Shown here: positions 31,082 to 42,222 of the stretch, piece by piece
How the letters are laid out: each line of letters opens with the position of its first letter
Numbering within the stretch: the first letter of the stretch is position 1
Assembly (NCBI GenBank): GCA_029262295.1
Contig: JAJCZR010000037.1
Location: forward strand, 1-64,000
Origin: Deltaproteobacteria bacterium
Lineage (GTDB): Bacteria; Desulfobacterota_D; UBA1144; Nemesobacterales; Nemesobacteraceae
DNA length: 64,000 nucleotides
Reading direction: 5' to 3'
Position numbers and translations under genes: made by a program
Notes under the pieces: generated by a model
Told to the model about the DNA's origin: nothing
Seen by the model: only the letters and a program-made list of their open reading frames with translations
The model's database searches: none

Positions 31082-32017
31082 TTAATCAAGAAATTGCTTT
31101 ACTCTATTAATAATAGATTTTAGTTCTGTATTATTATCAAACCATTCTATTTCTTTATCCGCACGAAGCCATGTCATTTGTCGTTTAGAAAATCTTTTTG
31201 AATCTCTTTTAATAACTTCCACAGCCCTATCCAGAGTTAAATTGTTATCCAGATATTGATTAACCTGTTTATAACCGATGGATTTCATAGGTTTAAGATC
31301 AGGACCAAAACCAATATCTCTAAGATTCTTTACTTCGTCAACAAAACCATCTCCAAACATTTGGTCCACTCGTTTATCTATTCTATTTCTCAGATCTTCT
31401 CTTTCAACACCTATTCCAATTTTTAATGTGTCGAATCTTTTATCCTGAAAAGCATGTTCTTCTTGATGTTCGCTGATTGATTTTCCTGTGAGCTGGTAGA
31501 CTTCAAGAGCACGTTCTATTCTTACATAGTCATTTTTATTAATCCTTTTTGCAGATTCGGGATCGATCATTTTCAAGCGTTTATGAAGAGAAGATGTTCC
31601 TTCTTTCTCTCTAAGTTTTTTTAATTCAGCTCTAAATTTCTTATCAACTCCAATATTTTCAAGTAGACCGGAGAGCAAAACCTTCACATAAAGAAAAGTA
31701 CCACCAACAATTATAATTTTTTTTTCTTCTTTTAAGAGTTGTTCAATTTTTGCAAGTGCGAGATCTCTATAGACACCTGCATTACAGTCTTCAGTCGGCT
31801 CTAATACATCTATTAAATGATGTGGAACTTCTTTTCTTTCCTGTATTGTAGGTTTGGCAGTACCTATATCAAGGTATTTATAAATCTGAAGAGAATCGGC
31901 ACTTATAATTGAAGCGCCAATTCTCTTTGCAATCTCTATTCCTAACTTTGTTTTGCCAACGGCTGTTGGACCAAGAATTACAATTAACTTAGGTTTTTTA
32001 TTTTCGCTCTTACTCAA
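31082..32017 (-). CDS. miaA: tRNA dimethylallyltransferase
   Basis: 311 aa. P-loop VILGPTAVGKTKLG, DSLQIYKYLDIGTAKPT, and the zinc-free C-terminal region KSIGYKQV and RDSKRFSKRQMTWLR are diagnostic. It adds dimethylallyl to A37 of UNN-reading tRNAs. The only available start is a TTG at 32017, 6 bp after the pnp stop; no earlier ATG exists. It is the last gene of the RNA operon that starts with rimP. Confidence 0.95.
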   Translation of the reverse strand: MSKSENKKPKLIVILGPTAVGKTKLGIEIAKRIGASIISADSLQIYKYLDIGTAKPTIQERKEVPHHLIDVLEPTEDCNAGVYRDLALAKIEQLLKEEKKIIIVGGTFLYVKVLLSGLLENIGVDKKFRAELKKLREKEGTSSLHKRLKMIDPESAKRINKNDYVRIERALEVYQLTGKSISEHQEEHAFQDKRFDTLKIGIGVEREDLRNRIDKRVDQMFGDGFVDEVKNLRDIGFGPDLKPMKSIGYKQVNQYLDNNLTLDRAVEVIKRDSKRFSKRQMTWLRADKEIEWFDNNTELKSIINRVKQFLD

Positions 32018-32023
32018 ATAACT

Positions 32024-34126
32024 TTACTTATAGTCAGCTATGTTCTCATCCAGTGCAGCTTTTCTGCTCAATCTGACTTTACCATCCCTTTCAACCATGA
32101 TGCATTTTACAAGGACTTCGTCCTTTTCATTTACAACATCTGTAACATTTTTCACCCTTTCATTTGCAAGTTCAGAAATATGCACAAGACCGTCCTTACC
32201 GTTTTTAAGCTCAACAATTGCACCAAAATCGAGGATACGTTTTACTACACCAAGGTATGATTTCCCAACTTCGAGATCTGTTATGAGGTCTTCAATATAT
32301 TTCTTTGCATTTTCACACGATTCTCCATCAGGTGATGCAATATTTATAATCCCATCATCATTGATATCAATCTGTACACCGGTTTCTTCAATAATCTTCT
32401 TGATGGTTTTTCCACCCTGTCCGATTACATCCTTGATCTTGTTTTTATCGATCTGCATTGTTAATATTCTGGGAGCAAATTCAGAAAGTTCGTTACTTGG
32501 AGCATCAATCACTTCTCCCATTTTTGAAAGAATATGCATTCTTCCTTCATGAGCCTGGTTTAAGGCTTTATTAAGAATCTCTTTTGTTATACCCTTTATT
32601 TTTATATCCATCTGAAGAGCGGTAATTCCGTTTTTTGTACCGGCAACTTTGAAATCCATGTCGCCCAGATGATCTTCATCACCAAGAATATCAGAGAGAA
32701 TAACAAATTCTTCCCCTTCTTTTATCAGTCCCATCGCAATCCCTGCCACAGCACCACTAATTGGCACACCAGCATTCATAAGGGAAAGTGAAGAACCACA
32801 AACGGTGGCCATTGAAGATGAACCGTTTGATTCAAGCACTTCTGAGACAATCCTGATTGTGTATGGAAACTCTTCTTTTGGAGGGAGTACAGGCTTGATA
32901 GCCCTTTCTGCTAATGCACCGTGGCCTATTTCCCTTCTGCCCGGGCCTAGCCTAAAGCTTGTCTCTCCAACAGAATAAGGTGGAAAGTTGTAATGAAGCA
33001 TAAAACTTTTTGTAATATCACCATCCAGTGCATCTATTCTTTGTTCATCGTAAGCTGTTCCAAGAGTGGCAACCACAGCAGCCTGGGTTTCTCCCCTTGT
33101 AAACACAGATGAACCGTGAGTCCTGGGAAGAAATCCAATCTCGCTTGTTATTGGCCTTACAGTTGTGAAATCCCTGCCGTCTGGCCTTACTTTCTCATTT
33201 ACAATAATTCCTCTTACCATATCCTTTAAAAGCTTATCGTAAGCCTTTCCAACATGATCTTCCTTTTCTTCAAACCTATCACCAAAGCTCTCCTTCATAT
33301 CTGAAAGAACCTCTCTAACCAGATCACTTCTGGAGGATTTGGAATCTACAATAATATTTTCTCTTAATCTGTCTTTTGCAAAAACCGCAACAGCTTCACT
33401 AACCTCGGCATCTATCTCAGCTTTTTTAACTTCTCTTTTTGGTACTTCAATACCATCTATAAAACGTTTTTGTAAATCAATGAGCTTCCTGGCGGCATCA
33501 TGTGCAAATATCAAGGCATCTACCACTGCTTCCTCACTAACCTCTTTTGAACCACCTTCCACCATTACAAGTGCCTCTTCAGTGCAGACTACTGTAATAT
33601 CCATATCACTTTTTTCAGCCTGTTCTTTTGTAGGGTTTATTATAAACTCCCCGTCAACCCTTCCAACTGTAACCCCTGCAATAGGACCATCAAAAGGTAT
33701 ATCGGAAACCATAATCGCAGCCGATGATGCCGTAAGGGCAAGCACTCCGGGATCATTTTCCTGATCCGATGACATAACTGTTATTATTACCTGAGTGGAA
33801 TAACTAAACTCCTTTGGTATTAATGGCCTGATAGGCCTGTCAATAAGTCTTGAAGTCAGGACTTCAAATTCTGAAGGCCTTCCCTCTCTTTTGAAATATC
33901 CGCCAGGAATTTTTCCTGCGGCATAGGATTTTTCCTGATAGTTTATAGTTAGTGGTAAAAAATCCTCATCAATTCGATCTCTAGATGCAACAACAGTGGC
34001 TAAAACAGATGTTCCGCCGCATGAGGCCAAGACTGCACCACTTGCCTGTTTTGCAAGTTTTCCTGTTTCAAATCTGTAATCTCTTCCAAATAGGTTTTCT
34101 TCTATAACTCTATAGTCGTTCGACAC
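32024..34126 (-). CDS. pnp: Polyribonucleotide nucleotidyltransferase (PNPase)
   Basis: 700 aa from the GTG at 34126, which has AGGAG seven bases upstream; the track's GTG two codons earlier sits almost on the ribosome site. Two RNase PH domains (GGTSVLATVV ... and RTHGSSVFTRGETQ ...), then KH (KDVIGQGGKTIKKI) and S1 (GAIVELKNGKDGLVHISEL). It degrades mRNA 3' to 5' with phosphate and is part of the degradosome in many bacteria. It follows rpsO by 18 bp, the classic rpsO-pnp pair. Confidence 0.97.
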   Translation of the reverse strand: MSNDYRVIEENLFGRDYRFETGKLAKQASGAVLASCGGTSVLATVVASRDRIDEDFLPLTINYQEKSYAAGKIPGGYFKREGRPSEFEVLTSRLIDRPIRPLIPKEFSYSTQVIITVMSSDQENDPGVLALTASSAAIMVSDIPFDGPIAGVTVGRVDGEFIINPTKEQAEKSDMDITVVCTEEALVMVEGGSKEVSEEAVVDALIFAHDAARKLIDLQKRFIDGIEVPKREVKKAEIDAEVSEAVAVFAKDRLRENIIVDSKSSRSDLVREVLSDMKESFGDRFEEKEDHVGKAYDKLLKDMVRGIIVNEKVRPDGRDFTTVRPITSEIGFLPRTHGSSVFTRGETQAAVVATLGTAYDEQRIDALDGDITKSFMLHYNFPPYSVGETSFRLGPGRREIGHGALAERAIKPVLPPKEEFPYTIRIVSEVLESNGSSSMATVCGSSLSLMNAGVPISGAVAGIAMGLIKEGEEFVILSDILGDEDHLGDMDFKVAGTKNGITALQMDIKIKGITKEILNKALNQAHEGRMHILSKMGEVIDAPSNELSEFAPRILTMQIDKNKIKDVIGQGGKTIKKIIEETGVQIDINDDGIINIASPDGESCENAKKYIEDLITDLEVGKSYLGVVKRILDFGAIVELKNGKDGLVHISELANERVKNVTDVVNEKDEVLVKCIMVERDGKVRLSRKAALDENIADYK

Positions 34127-34144
34127 GTTCACTCTCCTTAGGTG

Positions 34145-34414
34145 CTAACGTCTTAGGCCAAGTCTGGCAATTAGTTCACCATATTCGCCTGGCTTAACTC
34201 TTTTTAGATAATTTAGTAATTTTCTTCTTTTAGCAACTAATGAAACCAAACCTTTTCTTGAATGATTGTCCTTCGGTGCATTTTCCATATGAACTGAAAG
34301 TTCCTGTATCCTTTTACTCAGTATTCCCACCTGCACTTCAGCAGAACCTACATCCTGTGGGTGTTTTTGAAACTCACTAATAACCTGAGCTTTGTCTTCG
34401 CTGTCGAGAGCCAT
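34145..34414 (-). CDS. rpsO: Small ribosomal subunit protein uS15
   Basis: 89 aa, the exact family length. FQKHPQDVGSAEVQVGILSKRI and DNHSRKGLVSLVAKRRKLL are the S15 16S rRNA-binding segments. It binds the central domain of 16S rRNA early in 30S assembly and often represses its own mRNA. The ribosome site is strong (GGAGG, 7 bp from the ATG). Only 18 bp separate it from pnp, too little for the processing hairpins that sit between these genes in E. coli. Confidence 0.97.
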   Translation of the reverse strand: MALDSEDKAQVISEFQKHPQDVGSAEVQVGILSKRIQELSVHMENAPKDNHSRKGLVSLVAKRRKLLNYLKRVKPGEYGELIARLGLRR

Positions 34415-34436
34415 TGGCTTCCCTCCTCATAAAATA

Positions 34437-35348
34437 TTAATTAAGTACCCTTAAATGCTGGAAAATTATATCCTCATCTTCGGCATATTCAAATTCAGAT
34501 GAACTAATCTTGGCCTCTGAGAGGGAAATTACTTCTCCTTCAAAAAGGGTTTTAATTATATCCATTTTATCAAAATTTGGTAATAAAATTTTTAAAAGTG
34601 ATTTTTTAGTGATCTGTCTTCCATTTTTGATCATTTCGGTAAGCTCAAGATCTATATTAATACTTATATAACCACTTAAGATTTCACTTGCAGAAAGAAT
34701 ATTGTACCTTCCAGACTCTATCTCATTAAAGCTATAAGAGTTTTCAATAATAAAGTTTCCACTACCCAACCTTCTAAGAGAAGATAGATGGGCCCCGCAA
34801 CCAAGCTTATCCCCAATATCTGAAGCTAAAGCCCTTACATAGGTTCCTTTTGAACAATTAACATAAACTTTAATAACTGGAGGATTAAACTCTTGAAGCT
34901 TTATCTCATGAATAAATATCTCTCTTGGTTCCCTTTCAACTTCAAGGCCTTTTCTTGCAAGATTGTATAGCCTCTCACCTTTTATTTTTAGAGCAGAAAA
35001 CATCGGAGGAACCTGTTTTACCCTGCCTTTAAAACAACTCATAACGCTTTCCACATTAGACTTTTCAATTCCATCTACACTCTTTTCGGAAATAATCTCA
35101 CCAGTATAATCCATTGTATTAGTTGAAGTGCCCAGCTCAATTTCAGCAGCATATTGTTTTGTTTCTTCACAAAGATAAGGAATAAGTTTTGTAGCTTTAT
35201 TAAAACAAACGGGAAGAACACCTGTTGCAAATGGGTCGAGTGTGCCGGTATGGCCGGCTTTTTTTATATCAAGAATCTTTTTTAACCTCGAAACTGCCTG
35301 ATGAGATGTACAATCTGCTGGTTTATCAAGAATAAGTAGTCCATTCAT
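34437..35348 (-). CDS. truB: tRNA pseudouridine-55 synthase
   Basis: 303 aa. LDKPADCTSHQAV, catalytic AGHTGTLDPFATGVLPV, and CSKGTYVRALASDIG are diagnostic of TruB, which makes pseudouridine 55 in the T-loop of tRNAs. The C-terminal part (after about residue 235) lacks a recognisable PUA domain but has a variable tail, as in some other phyla. Its ATG follows the nrnA stop directly (TGAATG). Confidence 0.95.
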   Translation of the reverse strand: MNGLLILDKPADCTSHQAVSRLKKILDIKKAGHTGTLDPFATGVLPVCFNKATKLIPYLCEETKQYAAEIELGTSTNTMDYTGEIISEKSVDGIEKSNVESVMSCFKGRVKQVPPMFSALKIKGERLYNLARKGLEVEREPREIFIHEIKLQEFNPPVIKVYVNCSKGTYVRALASDIGDKLGCGAHLSSLRRLGSGNFIIENSYSFNEIESGRYNILSASEILSGYISINIDLELTEMIKNGRQITKKSLLKILLPNFDKMDIIKTLFEGEVISLSEAKISSSEFEYAEDEDIIFQHLRVLN

Positions 35349-36326
35349 TCATCTAAGCTCTTTTTTAATAGAACTGTAGAGCTTTGATTTTGCATCTTTT
35401 ATTGAACCTGCAACTCTACACCCGGCTGCCTTTTTATGACCACCACCACCATAGCCCTTTGCAATATTGGCTACATCCACATATTCTTTGGAGCGAAGGC
35501 TTGCCTTCCAGTCTGAATTTCCATTTATACATTCTTCGCGCAGCATAACTGCCACTTCTACCCCTTCTATAGATCTTGGAATATTCACCAGGCCTTCTGT
35601 ATCAACCCGGCTTGTCTTGGTTAGATCAAACATTTTTTTATCAACATGAATAAATGCAATTTTACCGGATTCATCAAGATCCAGAGTTCCAAGTGCCATA
35701 CTTTTTAATTTTATTTTTTTTACAGATTCTGTATCAAAGATTTTCTGCGAAATTTTTTCGGGGTCAACCCCAATACTCACAAGATCACCGGCAATATGAA
35801 AAGTTTCAGAATATGTGTTTGAGTATCTAAATGATCCAGTATCACCAACAATAGTTGCAAAAATATTTTCGGCGATGTCTTTATCAATTTCAATTCCCAT
35901 ATGCTTAATTAATTTATAGATTAGAATTCCAGTTGAAGAAGCATCAGGATCAACAATGATGTTTGCCCCATTGAGGCCGTTTGTCTTATGATGATCGATA
36001 AAAAGCATATCAATCCTGGTTTTTTTTGTATAATTTGCAAAATCTTCACCAGGCCGCATTGTATCTGCACAATCAAGCACTATAGCAGTTGATACTTCTG
36101 AATCTATAAGATCAAGGGAATCTTTTATAAGATGTGAACCTGGAAGAAATTTAAGATAATGAAGCTCATCTTTATTATACATTTCAACAGCTTTTCCAAT
36201 CTTGGTTAGGGCAAGCCCCAATGCCAGGGTTGAACCAATTGCATCACAATCAGGATTTTCATGTGCAACTATCAATAATTTGCTGCTATCCAGAATATGT
36301 TGAGAAACTTCTTCAAAATTAATCAT
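35349..36326 (-). CDS. nrnA: DHH-family phosphoesterase, NrnA-type (nanoRNase / pAp phosphatase)
   Basis: 325 aa. DHH metal motifs AHENPDCDAIGSTLAL, VLDCADT and LFIDHHKTN, with DHHA1 at the C-terminus (YGGGGHKKAAGCRV). NrnA degrades 2-5-nt RNAs and dephosphorylates 3'-phosphoadenosine 5'-phosphate. It sits between rbfA and truB, the usual place in non-enteric bacteria, overlapping rbfA by 8 bp. Together with PNPase downstream it would complete RNA turnover in a genome where no orn is visible in this window. Confidence 0.93.
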   Translation of the reverse strand: MINFEEVSQHILDSSKLLIVAHENPDCDAIGSTLALGLALTKIGKAVEMYNKDELHYLKFLPGSHLIKDSLDLIDSEVSTAIVLDCADTMRPGEDFANYTKKTRIDMLFIDHHKTNGLNGANIIVDPDASSTGILIYKLIKHMGIEIDKDIAENIFATIVGDTGSFRYSNTYSETFHIAGDLVSIGVDPEKISQKIFDTESVKKIKLKSMALGTLDLDESGKIAFIHVDKKMFDLTKTSRVDTEGLVNIPRSIEGVEVAVMLREECINGNSDWKASLRSKEYVDVANIAKGYGGGGHKKAAGCRVAGSIKDAKSKLYSSIKKELR

Positions 36327-36672
36327 CGACGCTGTCTTTTATTATTTGATCAAGCCTTTGGCTCTGATCTATAAATTGATCATACTCAAATTCTATATTT
36401 GGGATTTTTTTAATCCTCAGTCTTTTTGAAAGTTGGGTTTTTATATGGCCTGTGGCACTTCTTAGACCTTCTAAAACTTCATTCTCATCAATATCATCAA
36501 GAAGGGGCTTAAAAAATATTTTTGCATATCCCATATCATCTGTAACTTTTATGCCGGTTATAGATATTGATGAAACCCGTGGGTCTTTGATTTCCCCTCT
36601 TGTAATCATATTTGAAATTTCTTTAACAAGCAGATCTGAAATTCTGGCAGACCTTTTATAGCTGTGCCCCAA
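36319..36672 (-). CDS. rbfA: Ribosome-binding factor A
   Basis: 117 aa, KH-like fold. ARISDLLVKEISNMI at the N-terminus and VTDDMGYAKIFFKPL match RbfA, which binds the 16S 5' region and is required for 30S maturation and cold growth. Translation starts at a TTG (36672) that has AGGAG six bases upstream; there is no ATG in the N-terminal region. Neighbours DUF503 and nrnA flank it within 10 bp. Confidence 0.93.
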   Translation of the reverse strand: MGHSYKRSARISDLLVKEISNMITRGEIKDPRVSSISITGIKVTDDMGYAKIFFKPLLDDIDENEVLEGLRSATGHIKTQLSKRLRIKKIPNIEFEYDQFIDQSQRLDQIIKDSVDD

Positions 36673-36681
36673 GACTATCTC

Positions 36682-36972
36682 CTAAAAATGAATGACCTCT
36701 TTCTCTTCATTATTAATGAAAGAACCTGAAATTTGCTGAATGTAAAAAAACGCCTGATCTAAAATTGAATCCACAAAGGAAGCTTCATTTGAGACTATTG
36801 ACAAACCCACTGTAGATTTGTTCCATTTATCCAAAGAGCCAACTTCTGCAATAGATATATTTGGGAACCTTGATTTTGTTTTACCTATTAAACTTTTTAC
36901 TTGTCTTCTTTTATCTTTTAAAGACTGATTACCTTCCATGTAAATATCAAATTTCAATATCCCGACAACCAT
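36682..36972 (-). CDS. DUF503 protein
   Basis: 96 aa. The pattern SLKDKRRQVKSLIGKTKSRFPNISIAEV is the DUF503 signature. The family is small, of unknown function, and almost always sits between infB and rbfA, as here (10 bp from each), suggesting a role in translation initiation or ribosome assembly. No catalytic motif is visible. Confidence 0.9.
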   Translation of the reverse strand: MVVGILKFDIYMEGNQSLKDKRRQVKSLIGKTKSRFPNISIAEVGSLDKWNKSTVGLSIVSNEASFVDSILDQAFFYIQQISGSFINNEEKEVIHF

Positions 36973-36982
36973 TCAAAGGTAT

Positions 36983-39577
36983 CTATAGTGTTTGTTTTAT
37001 CTCTTCAAACATATAGAGTTCAAAAACATCACCAACTTTTATATCATTAAAATTTTCAATTGTTATTCCACACTCAAATCCTGTTTGCACTTCTTTTGCA
37101 TCATCCTTAAAACGCTTTAAGGAACTTAACTTTCCATCGTAAGTAATTACCCCTTCACGAAGTACCCTTGCCTTATCATCTCTTCCGACTTTTCCATCTG
37201 TAACCATACAACCAGCAATTGTACCTATCCTGGATATATGAAAAGTTTCCCTTACTTCAACATGTCCTGTAATTACTTCTTTTAGAACAGGCTCAAGCAG
37301 GCCTTCCATTGCATCTCTGATTCTGCTCACAACATCATAAATAATTGAATGAAGCTCAAAAGATACTTTTTCCTTTTCAGCTATTGAGAGTGCATTATTG
37401 TCAGGCCTTACATTAAATCCAACAACAATAGCGTTAGAAGCGCTGGCAAGCACAACATCTGTTTCGCTAATTCCACCTACACCTGTGTGAACTATTTTCA
37501 CAACACATTTTTCAGTGGAAAGTTTTTCAATCGATTCTTTAAGTGCTTCAACAGAACCCTGGGTATCACCTTTAATAATTATAGGTAGTTCTTTTACTTC
37601 TTCTTTTTCAAGAGAATCAAATAGATCCTCAAGCGATATCTTATTTGTATTTGGGGAATGAATATTAATCTTGTCTTCACGATGGGTAATAATATCTTTT
37701 GCGTCTTTTTCACCTTTCACTACATAAAACATATCGCCAGCTTCGGGTACTCCAGACAGTCCCATAATCTCAACTGGCATAGATGGCCCGGCCTCTTTAA
37801 CTCTTTTGCCATTATCATCCAAAAGTGCTTTTACTTTTCCATAATTAAGCCCTGATATAACATAGTCACCAACTTTGAGGGTCCCTTCTTTTACGATAAC
37901 AGTCGATAGTGCACCTCTACCCTTATCAAGCTCGGCTTCTACCACAACCCCATTTGCCCTTATATCTATTGCAGCTTTTAACTCCAGAAGATCAGACTGA
38001 AGTAATATAATTTCCAAGAGTTCCTTGATTCCAATTTTGCTTTTTGCTGATACTTCTGCAAAAAGTGTATCTCCACCCCACTCCTCAGAAATAAGACCTA
38101 TTTCGGAAAGTTCTCTTTTTATTTTTTCAGGATCAGCGCCGTCTTTATCAATTTTGTTAATAGCAACAATGATTGGCACTTCTGCTGCTTTGGCATGGTT
38201 AACAGCTTCCACAGTTTGCGGCATCACTCCATCATCAGCAGCCACCACAAGAATTACTATATCTGTAATGCTTGCTCCTCTGGCCCTCATGGAAGTAAAA
38301 GCTTCATGACCTGGAGTATCAACAAAAACAACACTCCCATCATTTACTTTAACTTTATATGCACCTATGTGCTGTGTAATTCCACCTGCCTCACCATCAA
38401 CAACATTAGCTTCCCTTATTGTGTCAAGCAAAGTTGTTTTTCCATGATCAACATGCCCCATCACAGTTACAACAGGAGGACGAGAAATAATTTCCTTTCC
38501 GCTTTCAATATCTACATCTATAAGAAATTCTTCTTCTTCAAATTTTTGAACTACTACCTCGTAACCAAATTCATCCGCAATCAGAGTTGCAGTATCTGTA
38601 TCTATCAACTCATTAATTGTGGCAGGTGTGCCCAATTGCATTAATTTTTTTATTATTCCACCAGCCTTTATTGACATTAATTTTGCAAGATCTCCCACTG
38701 AAACTGTTTCACCAATCTTCACAACTCTCTTAGTAGGTGGGACCGTGGAAATTGTTGAGCCACCTGCAATTCCATCTGAGGATACACCCCGTCGTGAACC
38801 TCTTGCATTTCTTCCGCCTGACCTTCTTCTTGAATCAGATCCATGCCTCAGCTTTGGCCTTCTTTCATCAACAACATATTCTCTTTTTCTGCTAGGTAAC
38901 TTGGTCCTGAATGCCTTTTTCAGTTCTTCTAATGAATCTTCATCAATTATTTCTTCTTTTTTCGGTTTTTTCTTTTTACCCTTTTTCTTTTTAATATCTT
39001 CTTCAGCCGCACTATCACCTTTTTTAGGTGATTTGGCCGAAACTTTTTTCTTTTCAGTTTCTTCTTCGGGAATATCCTTCGATTCTGTGGCAATATCTAC
39101 CACATCTTGTTGTGTTTCAGGAGAAAGTTCTTCTTTAGCTTCTTCTTTTGCTTCAACTACATCTTCTTTCTCAACTGGTTTTTCTTCAACTTCAACCTCG
39201 GAAACTTCTTCTGTGATAGTATCATCTTCAGCAACAGTTGTTTCTTCAACGGTTTCTTCTGATTCTTCTTTTACTTCAGATCGTTTCTTCTTTCTTAAGA
39301 CAACTCTTGAACCAGTTCTTCTTTCAACAATTTCCTGTCCACTATCTGACTTGAAAACTTTTACTTTCTCTTCTTTTCCTTCAACCTCTTCTGGCTTGGC
39401 AACAGAACTGATACCATTAGAAACGGATAAAGAATCCTTTATCTTTTGTGCATGCTCTTCACTAACAGAGCTTGCGTGGCTTTTAAGCTCAAACCCCAGT
39501 TCCTTACCTGCACTTATCACCTGCGCATTTGTAAGTCCAAGTTCTCTTGATATTTCATATACCCTAACTTTAGGCAT
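36983..39577 (-). CDS. infB: Translation initiation factor IF-2
   Basis: 864 aa. Small N-terminal IF2N domain ([23 protein letters not shown]), then about 200 residues of highly charged low-complexity linker (Glu/Lys rich, with [13 protein letters not shown]), a second IF2N ([23 protein letters not shown]), then the GTPase domain ([30 protein letters not shown]) and C-terminal fMet-tRNA-binding domains. It places initiator tRNA on the 30S subunit. The acidic linker produces a 324-aa antisense open frame that is not a gene. Confidence 0.97.
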
Positions 39578-39603: not shown

Positions 39604-41109
39604 TTATTCACTATTTTCTACACTACTCTCATCAATTGAAATTTCTGATGGTTCAGAATCCGGCTCAGTCTCAGAAACAGGTTCAGGTTCTGAAACAGGC
39701 TCATTTTCCGAGATTGATTCATTTTCTAAAACAGGCTCAGCTTCAGAAGCATTTTCTTTTTCTGGTTCAGGTTCATTTTCTGATGTAGTTTCTTTGAGTT
39801 CTTCAGATTTACTTGCATCAACGGATTCATTATCAGAAACATCATCTTCAATAGACATTTGATCAAGTCTGTCTTTAAGGGCAAGTCTTGAAGCAGTTTG
39901 TATCTTGGCAACTTCGTCAAGATCTGGAAGGCCAGCTGCCCTCATTAACGATTCAGGCTCTGAAAATGCAACATCTTCCAGTGAATAAAATCCTTCATTA
40001 TAAAGAAGATTGGCAGTAACCTCACTAATAGAAGGAAGGCTCATTAATAATGATAAAACATCTTGCTGTTCTTTTTTTACTTTTGTCTCAGTCTTAATAT
40101 CAATCTTCCAATCTGTTAATTGTGAGGCAAGCCGCACATTCTGACCTCTTCTCCCAATTGCAAGTGATAATTGATCATCATCAACAATCACTTCCATAGC
40201 CTTACTCCCTTCATCAATAATTACTTTATTTACACTTGCAGGGGAAAGGGCATTACATGCATAACGGGCAGAATCTTCAGACCACGGGACGATATCAATC
40301 TTCTCACCTCTAAGTTCCTGAATAATATTCTGAACCCTTGAACCTCTCATTCCAACACATGCACCCACGGGATCAACATCAGAATCGGCAGAAGTAACTG
40401 CTATTTTAGTCCTACCACCCGGATCTCTTGCCACTGATTTTATTTCAACAATTTGTTCACTAATTTCAGGCACTTCTGATTCAAACAACTTAACTACAAA
40501 GCTCCTGTCAGATCTTGATAAAATGATCTGTGGCCCACGTTTTGATTCCCTTATATCCAGAAGTACAGCCCTTATTCTTTCCTTGGGCTTATAGTATTCT
40601 TTTGGCACCTGCTGATCTGCCGGCAAAATTGCTTCTGTTCTGCCAAGATCCACTATCACATTTCTTCTTTCCATTCTTCTAACAATACCACCCACAAGAT
40701 CGCCTTTTCTGTTTATAAATTCATCGTATATAACTTTTCCTTCAGCTTCTTTGAGTTTTTGTAATACTTTTTGCTTTGCATTTTGTATTGCAATTCTTGT
40801 GAACTCAGGACTTATTTTTACACCGATCAAATCACCAATCTCAGCATCTGGATCAAGTTTGGCAGCATCGTCTACAGAGATTTCAAGATCAGGATCTTCA
40901 ATATCATTTACAACTTCTTTAAACTCAAATAACTCAACTTCACCTTCAACAACATTATAGTGAACTTCAAATTCCTTATCTTTCCCGCCTCTAAGAAGTT
41001 TTTCAGCAGCAGACAAAACAGCTTCTTCAACAGCCTGTATTATCTGATCCTTGTCAACTCCTTTATCTTTACCTACGGAATCTATTACTCGGCTTAATTC
41101 CGTAATCAT
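39604..41109 (-). CDS. nusA: Transcription termination/antitermination factor NusA
   Basis: 501 aa from the ATG at 41109, which has GGAGG six bases upstream; the track's TTG seven codons earlier overlaps rimP. N-terminal RNAP-binding domain, S1 (GDLVGGIVRRMERRNVIVDLG), KH1 and KH2 (GACVGMRGSRVQNI and LAIGRRGQNVRLA), then one AR2-like helix-hairpin domain and an acidic tail of about 65 residues built from repeated S-E-x-E-P units. It modulates pausing and termination. An intrinsic terminator in the operon leader suggests that it regulates itself. Confidence 0.96.
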   Translation of the reverse strand: MITELSRVIDSVGKDKGVDKDQIIQAVEEAVLSAAEKLLRGGKDKEFEVHYNVVEGEVELFEFKEVVNDIEDPDLEISVDDAAKLDPDAEIGDLIGVKISPEFTRIAIQNAKQKVLQKLKEAEGKVIYDEFINRKGDLVGGIVRRMERRNVIVDLGRTEAILPADQQVPKEYYKPKERIRAVLLDIRESKRGPQIILSRSDRSFVVKLFESEVPEISEQIVEIKSVARDPGGRTKIAVTSADSDVDPVGACVGMRGSRVQNIIQELRGEKIDIVPWSEDSARYACNALSPASVNKVIIDEGSKAMEVIVDDDQLSLAIGRRGQNVRLASQLTDWKIDIKTETKVKKEQQDVLSLLMSLPSISEVTANLLYNEGFYSLEDVAFSEPESLMRAAGLPDLDEVAKIQTASRLALKDRLDQMSIEDDVSDNESVDASKSEELKETTSENEPEPEKENASEAEPVLENESISENEPVSEPEPVSETEPDSEPSEISIDESSVENSE

Positions 41110-41119
41110 ATTTTGCCTC

Positions 41120-41587
41120 CTAGAAATCAAGTTCTAAGTTTGCCTTTTTAATTGAATCTAAAGGCAAGCTGTACAGCTTTCCATCAACATCTACAGATAC
41201 TATTTTTTTCTCAATTCCCATCAAATTACCTATAAAGTTCTTTCTGTCTTCAATAATTTCATTTGTCTTTATCTTCACTTTTTTTCCTGCAAACCGCTCA
41301 AAATCACTCTCCTTACGGAGTGGCCTTCTAAGGCCAGGTGACGACACCTCCAGGTTATATGAGCTTCCAATAACATCATTCACATCAAGCAAAACACTCA
41401 AATTCCTGCTAACTTTGGCACAATCATCAAGTTTAATGCCCCCGGGTTTATCAAGATAAACCCTGAGAACTTTTCCGCCTGCTTCGTTTTTAAACTCAAT
41501 ATCTACCAGTTCAATATGACCTTCATCAAGTATTGGTGCCAAAATGTCTGCAACCGAATTTACTGAAGGATCATCAAATTGTTTCAT
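41120..41587 (-). CDS. rimP: Ribosome maturation factor RimP
   Basis: 155 aa. VDIEFKNEAGGKVLRVYLDKPGGI and SYNLEVSSPGLRRPLRKE are the RimP signatures. It helps assemble the 30S subunit and always precedes nusA. The gene is the first of the RNA operon; no ribosome site is evident, and a strong terminator hairpin lies about 31 bp upstream of its ATG. Confidence 0.95.
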   Translation of the reverse strand: MKQFDDPSVNSVADILAPILDEGHIELVDIEFKNEAGGKVLRVYLDKPGGIKLDDCAKVSRNLSVLLDVNDVIGSSYNLEVSSPGLRRPLRKESDFERFAGKKVKIKTNEIIEDRKNFIGNLMGIEKKIVSVDVDGKLYSLPLDSIKKANLELDF

Positions 41588-41617
41588 TATAATTTTTATG
41601 CTTTATATTAAACTAAT

Positions 41618-41645
41618 AAAAAAAAGCGGGCTAAAACCCGCTTTT
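41618..41645 (-). terminator. Intrinsic terminator in the leader of the rimP-nusA-infB operon
   Basis: Minus-strand stem AAAAGCGGG / CCCGCTTTT with loop TTTTAG, followed by an unbroken run of eight T's. It ends 31 bases before the rimP ATG. Both flanking genes are transcribed away from it, so it cannot be an ordinary end-of-gene terminator. The most economical reading is a transcription attenuator. On the plus strand the same hairpin is followed only by CTTTTC. Confidence 0.8.
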
Positions 41646-41715
41646 CTTTGCAAATCAAAAAATAGTCTACATAAACAATGTAAATCATCAAGAAAAGAAA
41701 TACAAACAGTTTGTT

Positions 41716-42222
41716 ATGAAAAATAAAGTTCAAAGCCTGATAAAACTAATCTATAATTCCCTTATATTTGATCAAAAAACCTACAGAGAAGTAAAAGATA
41801 ATGGTGAATACACAAAATATTGCCTCTTAATTGTTATTATTGCTGCCCTTTGCGATGGTGTTTCAACAGCTCACTACACAAATGCTGAAGGCCTTGTTAA
41901 GCAACTTGTTTTCTCAATTGTCGGTTGGATCATAAGCAGTGCAATTATATACTTGATCGGGGTTAGGGTGATTGGTTATAGCTCCGGGATATTACAATTA
42001 GCCAGAACGCTTGGAATTTCATACTCACCTCATATTATCAATCTTTTTACAATCATACCGTTTATTGGAATAAACATTTTTATTATTTCAGTAATATGGG
42101 GGTTTTTTACAACAGTTTATGCAGTAAAACTCACTTTTAATTGCAGAAAGCTAATTGCATTTTTAATAACTTTAGCAGGATTAGTTCCCTACGGTATTAT
42201 TATGTTTTTTCTTCTGAGATAG
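41716..42222 (+). CDS. Yip1-domain integral membrane protein
   Basis: 168 aa with four or five hydrophobic segments and the soluble start LIYNSLIFDQKTYREVKDNG, typical of bacterial Yip1-family proteins. The segment RTLGISYSPHIINLFTIIPFIG is the family's conserved Pro-rich loop. Function in bacteria is unknown. It is read divergently from rimP; the terminator hairpin lies between the two. Confidence 0.75.
   Translation: MKNKVQSLIKLIYNSLIFDQKTYREVKDNGEYTKYCLLIVIIAALCDGVSTAHYTNAEGLVKQLVFSIVGWIISSAIIYLIGVRVIGYSSGILQLARTLGISYSPHIINLFTIIPFIGINIFIISVIWGFFTTVYAVKLTFNCRKLIAFLITLAGLVPYGIIMFFLLR

Follow-up and report, generated by a model that had tools for sequence, protein, structure and literature searches.

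The hairpin that precedes rimP in the 64-kb stretch of Dadabacteria DNA analyzed here (the window) is a further instance of a known and very widespread brake on the rimP-nusA-infB operon. We consider it likely that it serves as an intrinsic terminator close to the promoter and so attenuates this operon, with the level of NusA setting the extent of termination. RNA polymerase would start near position 41656 and transcribe the hairpin almost at once, and a fraction of the complexes would stop after about 38 nt; NusA, itself a product of the operon, would most likely work the brake. Reading the leader as an attenuator is well supported by comparison among genomes, which covers the hairpin and its conservation, a promoter-like element upstream of it, the U-tract, and independence both from the neighboring gene and, in other bacteria, from RimP. 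The idea of a NusA attenuator at this position is not new. In 2010 Naville and Gautheret described the rimP-leader as the most ubiquitous attenuator in bacteria; of RimP and NusA, both of which they brought up as effectors, they favored NusA (PMC2965389). What the present analysis usefully adds are genomes that lack RimP and the concentration of an AGUGGG stem at the leader; it also adds an uncultured phylum to the range of the known attenuator, and the layout of promoter and hairpin is clear there.

Positions 41649-41618 of the minus strand read AAAGAAAAGCGGGTTTTAGCCCGCTTTTTTTT. The core of the hairpin is a stem of 9 bp, AAAAGCGGG-TTTTAG-CCCGCTTTT, which reaches at most 14 bp when flanking A-U and G-U pairs are counted, and it is followed by T8 at 41625-41618. 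The RNA fold has an energy of -18.3 kcal/mol, as against -6.6 +/- 2.3 for shuffled sequences (z = -5.0), and none of 200 shuffles equaled it. A census of the whole window found nine terminator-like sites, among which the leader hairpin ranks strongest and is the only one with a strong stem and T8 that is aimed at a gene start. The sequence-only reading had described a 9-bp stem with T8 before rimP, pointing into the operon, and the sequence, the fold and the census all bear this out. The pattern GCGGG-N3-9-CCCGC occurs at one place in the 2.2-Mb genome, which is the leader hairpin, and AGYGGG..CCCRCT is likewise present there in a single copy. The T tract ends at 41618 and the rimP ATG begins at 41587, with 30 bases between them (41588..41617, minus strand). 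This part of the leader differs widely in length among relatives, while the spacing of promoter and hairpin does not. Read on the plus strand, 41618-41652 also forms a hairpin with a T-rich tail (TTTTCTTT), which could end antisense transcripts from rimP.

The first gene of the operon, rimP (41120..41587, minus strand), matches Pfam RimP_N (E 9e-26) and DUF150_C. It is followed on the same strand by nusA (39604..41130; NusA_N, E 1e-32, KH_5 and S1), whose product is the proposed effector, and by infB, DUF503, rbfA, a DHH/nrnA-like gene, truB, rpsO, pnp and miaA (31082..39577), with the miaA end of the run at 31082. Pfam confirms the first six genes (rimP, nusA, infB, DUF503, rbfA and the DHH protein), while truB, rpsO, pnp and miaA are names given from their sequence alone. 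The ten-gene operon proposed earlier is thus upheld as a co-directional run by the order of open reading frames, and by Pfam for its first six members. Upstream of the hairpin is an open reading frame of 168 amino acids on the plus strand (41716..42222), for which a Pfam search returned no match; its homologues occur near a transglutaminase-like gene in genomes of a related family (f5). Because this reading frame is divergent, there is no transcript that needs ending at the hairpin, as had been pointed out from the sequence.

We searched 60 relatives, 57 of them in the window's class, and obtained upstream DNA for nearly all. Among those with a name, the nearest are Candidatus Dadabacteria and genomes that carry the labels Deltaproteobacteria, Desulfobacterota or Thermodesulfobacteriales. 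In 53 of 57 distinct leaders, a set that includes a few outgroups, we found a GGG..CCC hairpin followed by a T-rich tail. Four leaders gave no match. Two of these, from the class (L003 and L013), have related variant stems with other cores; an outgroup leader (L080) has GTGGGT..ACCCAC just before rimP and was missed since its tail is cut at the start codon; and in the other outgroup leader (L079) the search found no hairpin. All 50 of the distinct class leaders that were aligned, from at least seven families, carry the hairpin before rimP. The GGG is invariant in this alignment, partly by construction because the alignment was anchored on it, and so are three T after the stem, for which the search demanded a T-rich tail that favors T but leaves its positions unfixed. 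The outer positions on the 3' side are T in 48 of the 50 leaders, also where the base opposite them on the 5' side is other than A. Since T is kept where pairing is impossible, the comparison favors termination over a merely longer stem. Aligning related leaders had been proposed as a check on the sequence-only reading, and loss of the hairpin from close relatives as evidence against it; the hairpin is kept in close and distant relatives alike. Leaders of a family with reduced genomes (L063-L076, family f8) have a weaker T tract after the stem, such as TTTATT, and are better candidates for NusA-dependent termination than the T8 of the window.

The operon promoter is predicted at 41664..41691 on the minus strand, with TTGATG (41691-41686), a spacer of 16 nt and TAGACT (41669-41664), and it is homologous to an element in the relatives. 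In a strict motif search, 47 of the 50 class leaders had TTGC/TTGA..N15-18..TA--AT immediately before the hairpin, compared with a mean of 1.6 and a maximum of 4 in shuffled upstream DNA. On this comparative evidence, the promoter expected upstream of the terminator in a NusA-autoregulated attenuator of the B. subtilis type is represented by a conserved promoter-like element. The median distance from the -10 element to the GGG is 18 nt (sd 4.9) in the class leaders, whereas that from the hairpin to the start codon ranges from 22 to 118 nt (sd 20). In one genus (g10), for example, the leader after the hairpin extends to 58-118 nt and the spacing between promoter and hairpin is still 15-17. Judged by this near-constant spacing against a variable distance to the start codon, the position of the hairpin follows the promoter rather than the ribosome site; in other words, the hairpin is a feature of the transcript's beginning. 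For the window, transcription should begin at about 41656/41655, with the hairpin beginning at most about 20 nt from the predicted start, and the terminated RNA should be about 38 nt long. An RNA of that size would be a compact template for testing NusA-stimulated termination near a promoter. A transcription start between the hairpin and rimP would have counted against the attenuator, and the comparison instead places the conserved promoter-like element upstream of the hairpin. Outside the class, a fixed promoter spacing was sought in an aligned logo of rimP leaders and gave no signal. The short TACAT/ATGTA dyad that had also been remarked on is indeed present at 41682-41668 (minus strand). 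It falls within the promoter, in the spacer and the -10 element, and its pairing is not conserved in relatives, and we rejected it as a second, separate regulatory element.

By sequence, the element in the window has the defining features of the general rimP-leader (PMC2965389) that we tested. As there, a single GGG..CCC terminator with a G-rich 5' arm and a T stretch stands upstream of rimP-nusA-infB, its distance to the gene lies within the range of 4-130 nt, and neither a riboswitch nor an antiterminator goes with it. The GCGGG..CCCGC stem of the window has the same core in the 50 relatives (in the GGG-anchored alignment), its signature is shared with none of the genome's other terminators, and no larger conserved sensor structure accompanies it, no Rfam family reaching threshold. 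It differs in the base pair next to the GGG, which is C-G here and, in our comparison, U-A in most other bacteria. An Rfam scan at the locus with gathering and permissive thresholds gave nothing meaningful. We rejected the Rfam rimP family RF01770, the tandem form known from E. coli, as a description of this leader: the model, which has 102 positions and passed its cut-off in only 1 of 14 control genomes, has no match at the locus (gathering score 47 bits; best score elsewhere in the genome 30.2 bits).

Several known systems resemble this leader. In S. agalactiae, RNA-seq showed that transcripts of the same operon (gbs0413-gbs0418) terminate 31 nt from their start, and the same proposal was made there (PMC4448216); the 31 nt were measured and our 38 nt are predicted, and the likeness is one of operon and distance. 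NusA of B. subtilis autoregulates by termination in its own leader (Mondal 2016, as summarized in the review PMC12288461), so that the precedent invoked by the sequence-only reading is real as that review gives it. By analogy, the window too would have an intrinsic terminator before the nusA operon that responds to NusA, although that leader measures about 180 nt in B. subtilis (PMC2965389) and ours, counted through the T tract, about 38 nt. For E. coli, the account in PMC6511841 places the terminators t1 and t2 before rimP and describes NusA-controlled expression of the operon. The metY-rimP-nusA-infB operon, which NusA represses, also has terminators between promoter and rimP. Unlike the window, with its one hairpin and no tRNA, it has a tRNA gene and a tandem of CCCg..cGGG followed by GGGc..gCCC.

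Another view of the element comes from other bacterial families. Within 350 nt upstream of rimP, 56 of 80 regions have a terminator and 47 a GGG..CCC terminator, where dinucleotide shuffles of the same regions gave 3-5 and 0-1, respectively. Aligned on the GGG, the consensus across phyla is (A)AGUGGG..CCC(A/G)CUU followed by a T tract. Outside the class, among the genome-wide AGYGGG..CCCRCTYTT matches that were listed and could be placed, the AGTGGG..CCCACT type stood at a rimP or nusA leader in 21 of 25 cases and the AGCGGG..CCCGCT type in none of 27.

If the hairpin merely ended the transcript of an upstream gene (uvrB in the ancestral state), as ordinary 3' terminators do, it would be no attenuator at all. 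A codirectional uvrB does end directly upstream in many genomes of genus g2, in the window's own family, and in families f6 and f8. The hairpin or a variant of it is nevertheless kept in eight genomes whose upstream gene is divergent (that of the window, L001, and seven others: L003, L011, L014, L015, L031, L037 and L062), and hence is more than a terminator for the preceding gene. The conserved promoter-like element moreover separates the upstream gene from the hairpin, and the stem type is concentrated at the rimP/nusA leader across bacteria. We regard this explanation as very improbable in general, and rejected it for the window, where a codirectional gene just upstream is missing and the reading frame at 41716-42222 is divergent. 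Equally hard to sustain is the idea that the hairpin is a 5' stem-loop cap that shields the operon mRNA from decay. Its position within a few nucleotides of the predicted 5' end and, in the window, the pairing of an A tract with the U tract would suit a cap, but the U-tract is conserved even where such pairing is impossible, and S. agalactiae yields a short terminated RNA from this operon (PMC4448216).

A more serious alternative accepts the attenuator and takes NusA away from it: read-through would be set by another factor (NusG, cold-shock proteins or the state of transcription and translation), or termination would be constitutive and simply lower expression. Strong stems with an uninterrupted T tract often have little need for NusA in other bacteria, and the strong stem and T8 of the window may terminate without it. 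In E. coli the whole operon is cold-induced, and changes at promoters and/or terminators are suspected in the account we draw on (PMC6511841). Split nusA genes without a hairpin also fit this alternative. Against it stand the NusA-dependent control of the operon reported for E. coli and B. subtilis in the sources cited above, the persistence of the hairpin without RimP when nusA leads, and a leader of about 38 nt in which no conserved antiterminator or sensor is visible. We judge this alternative to be unlikely, though well ahead of the two preceding ones. Given the parallels in B. subtilis and E. coli, NusA feedback is the best inference as to mechanism.

Genomes without RimP offer a natural test that removes RimP as a necessary effector, a choice that was open in 2010. 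We collected 20 genomes (L162-L181) with a well-scoring NusA and no match to RimP_N. Depending on the upstream distance taken, 17 or 18 of the 20 have a terminator shortly before nusA; in 13 it is a GGG..CCC terminator, about 48-198 nt ahead of the NusA domain. Because the hairpin precedes nusA in these 13, the comparison indicates that the element is retained without RimP, which cannot be the required effector in genomes that lack it, and NusA gains support over RimP. A hairpin of the AGTGGG type stands directly before nusA in most of the RimP-less genomes. The converse test does not separate RimP from NusA, since in five genomes where rimP and nusA lie apart (among L182-L189, L113 and L157) the hairpin was found at neither gene; the hairpin therefore does not always travel with nusA. 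The hairpin accompanies a high-scoring NusA in 40 of 55 genomes and a lower-scoring one in 7 of 25 (Fisher p = 0.0002), a difference that is confounded by phylogeny.

The AGUGGG..CCCACU stem, with its C-G variant in Dadabacteria, might even be an ancient sequence-specific RNA element that is shared by many bacterial families and read directly by NusA. We offer this as a tentative and rather doubtful proposal, suggested by the concentration of the stem at the leader, by its presence before nusA without rimP, and by its lower frequency where NusA scores lower. The pair next to the GGG is C-G in Dadabacteria, with one genus at a U-G intermediate, and U-A in most other bacteria; if the proposal were true, one stem pair would have switched in Dadabacteria, with compensation, from U-A through U-G to C-G. 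Leaders of Desulfomonile and other Deltaproteobacteria (L018, L019 and L020), read by eye, have a tRNA-like sequence and then a terminator directly before rimP, like metY-rimP of E. coli, and the stem in L018 and L019 is of the CCCGGG type.
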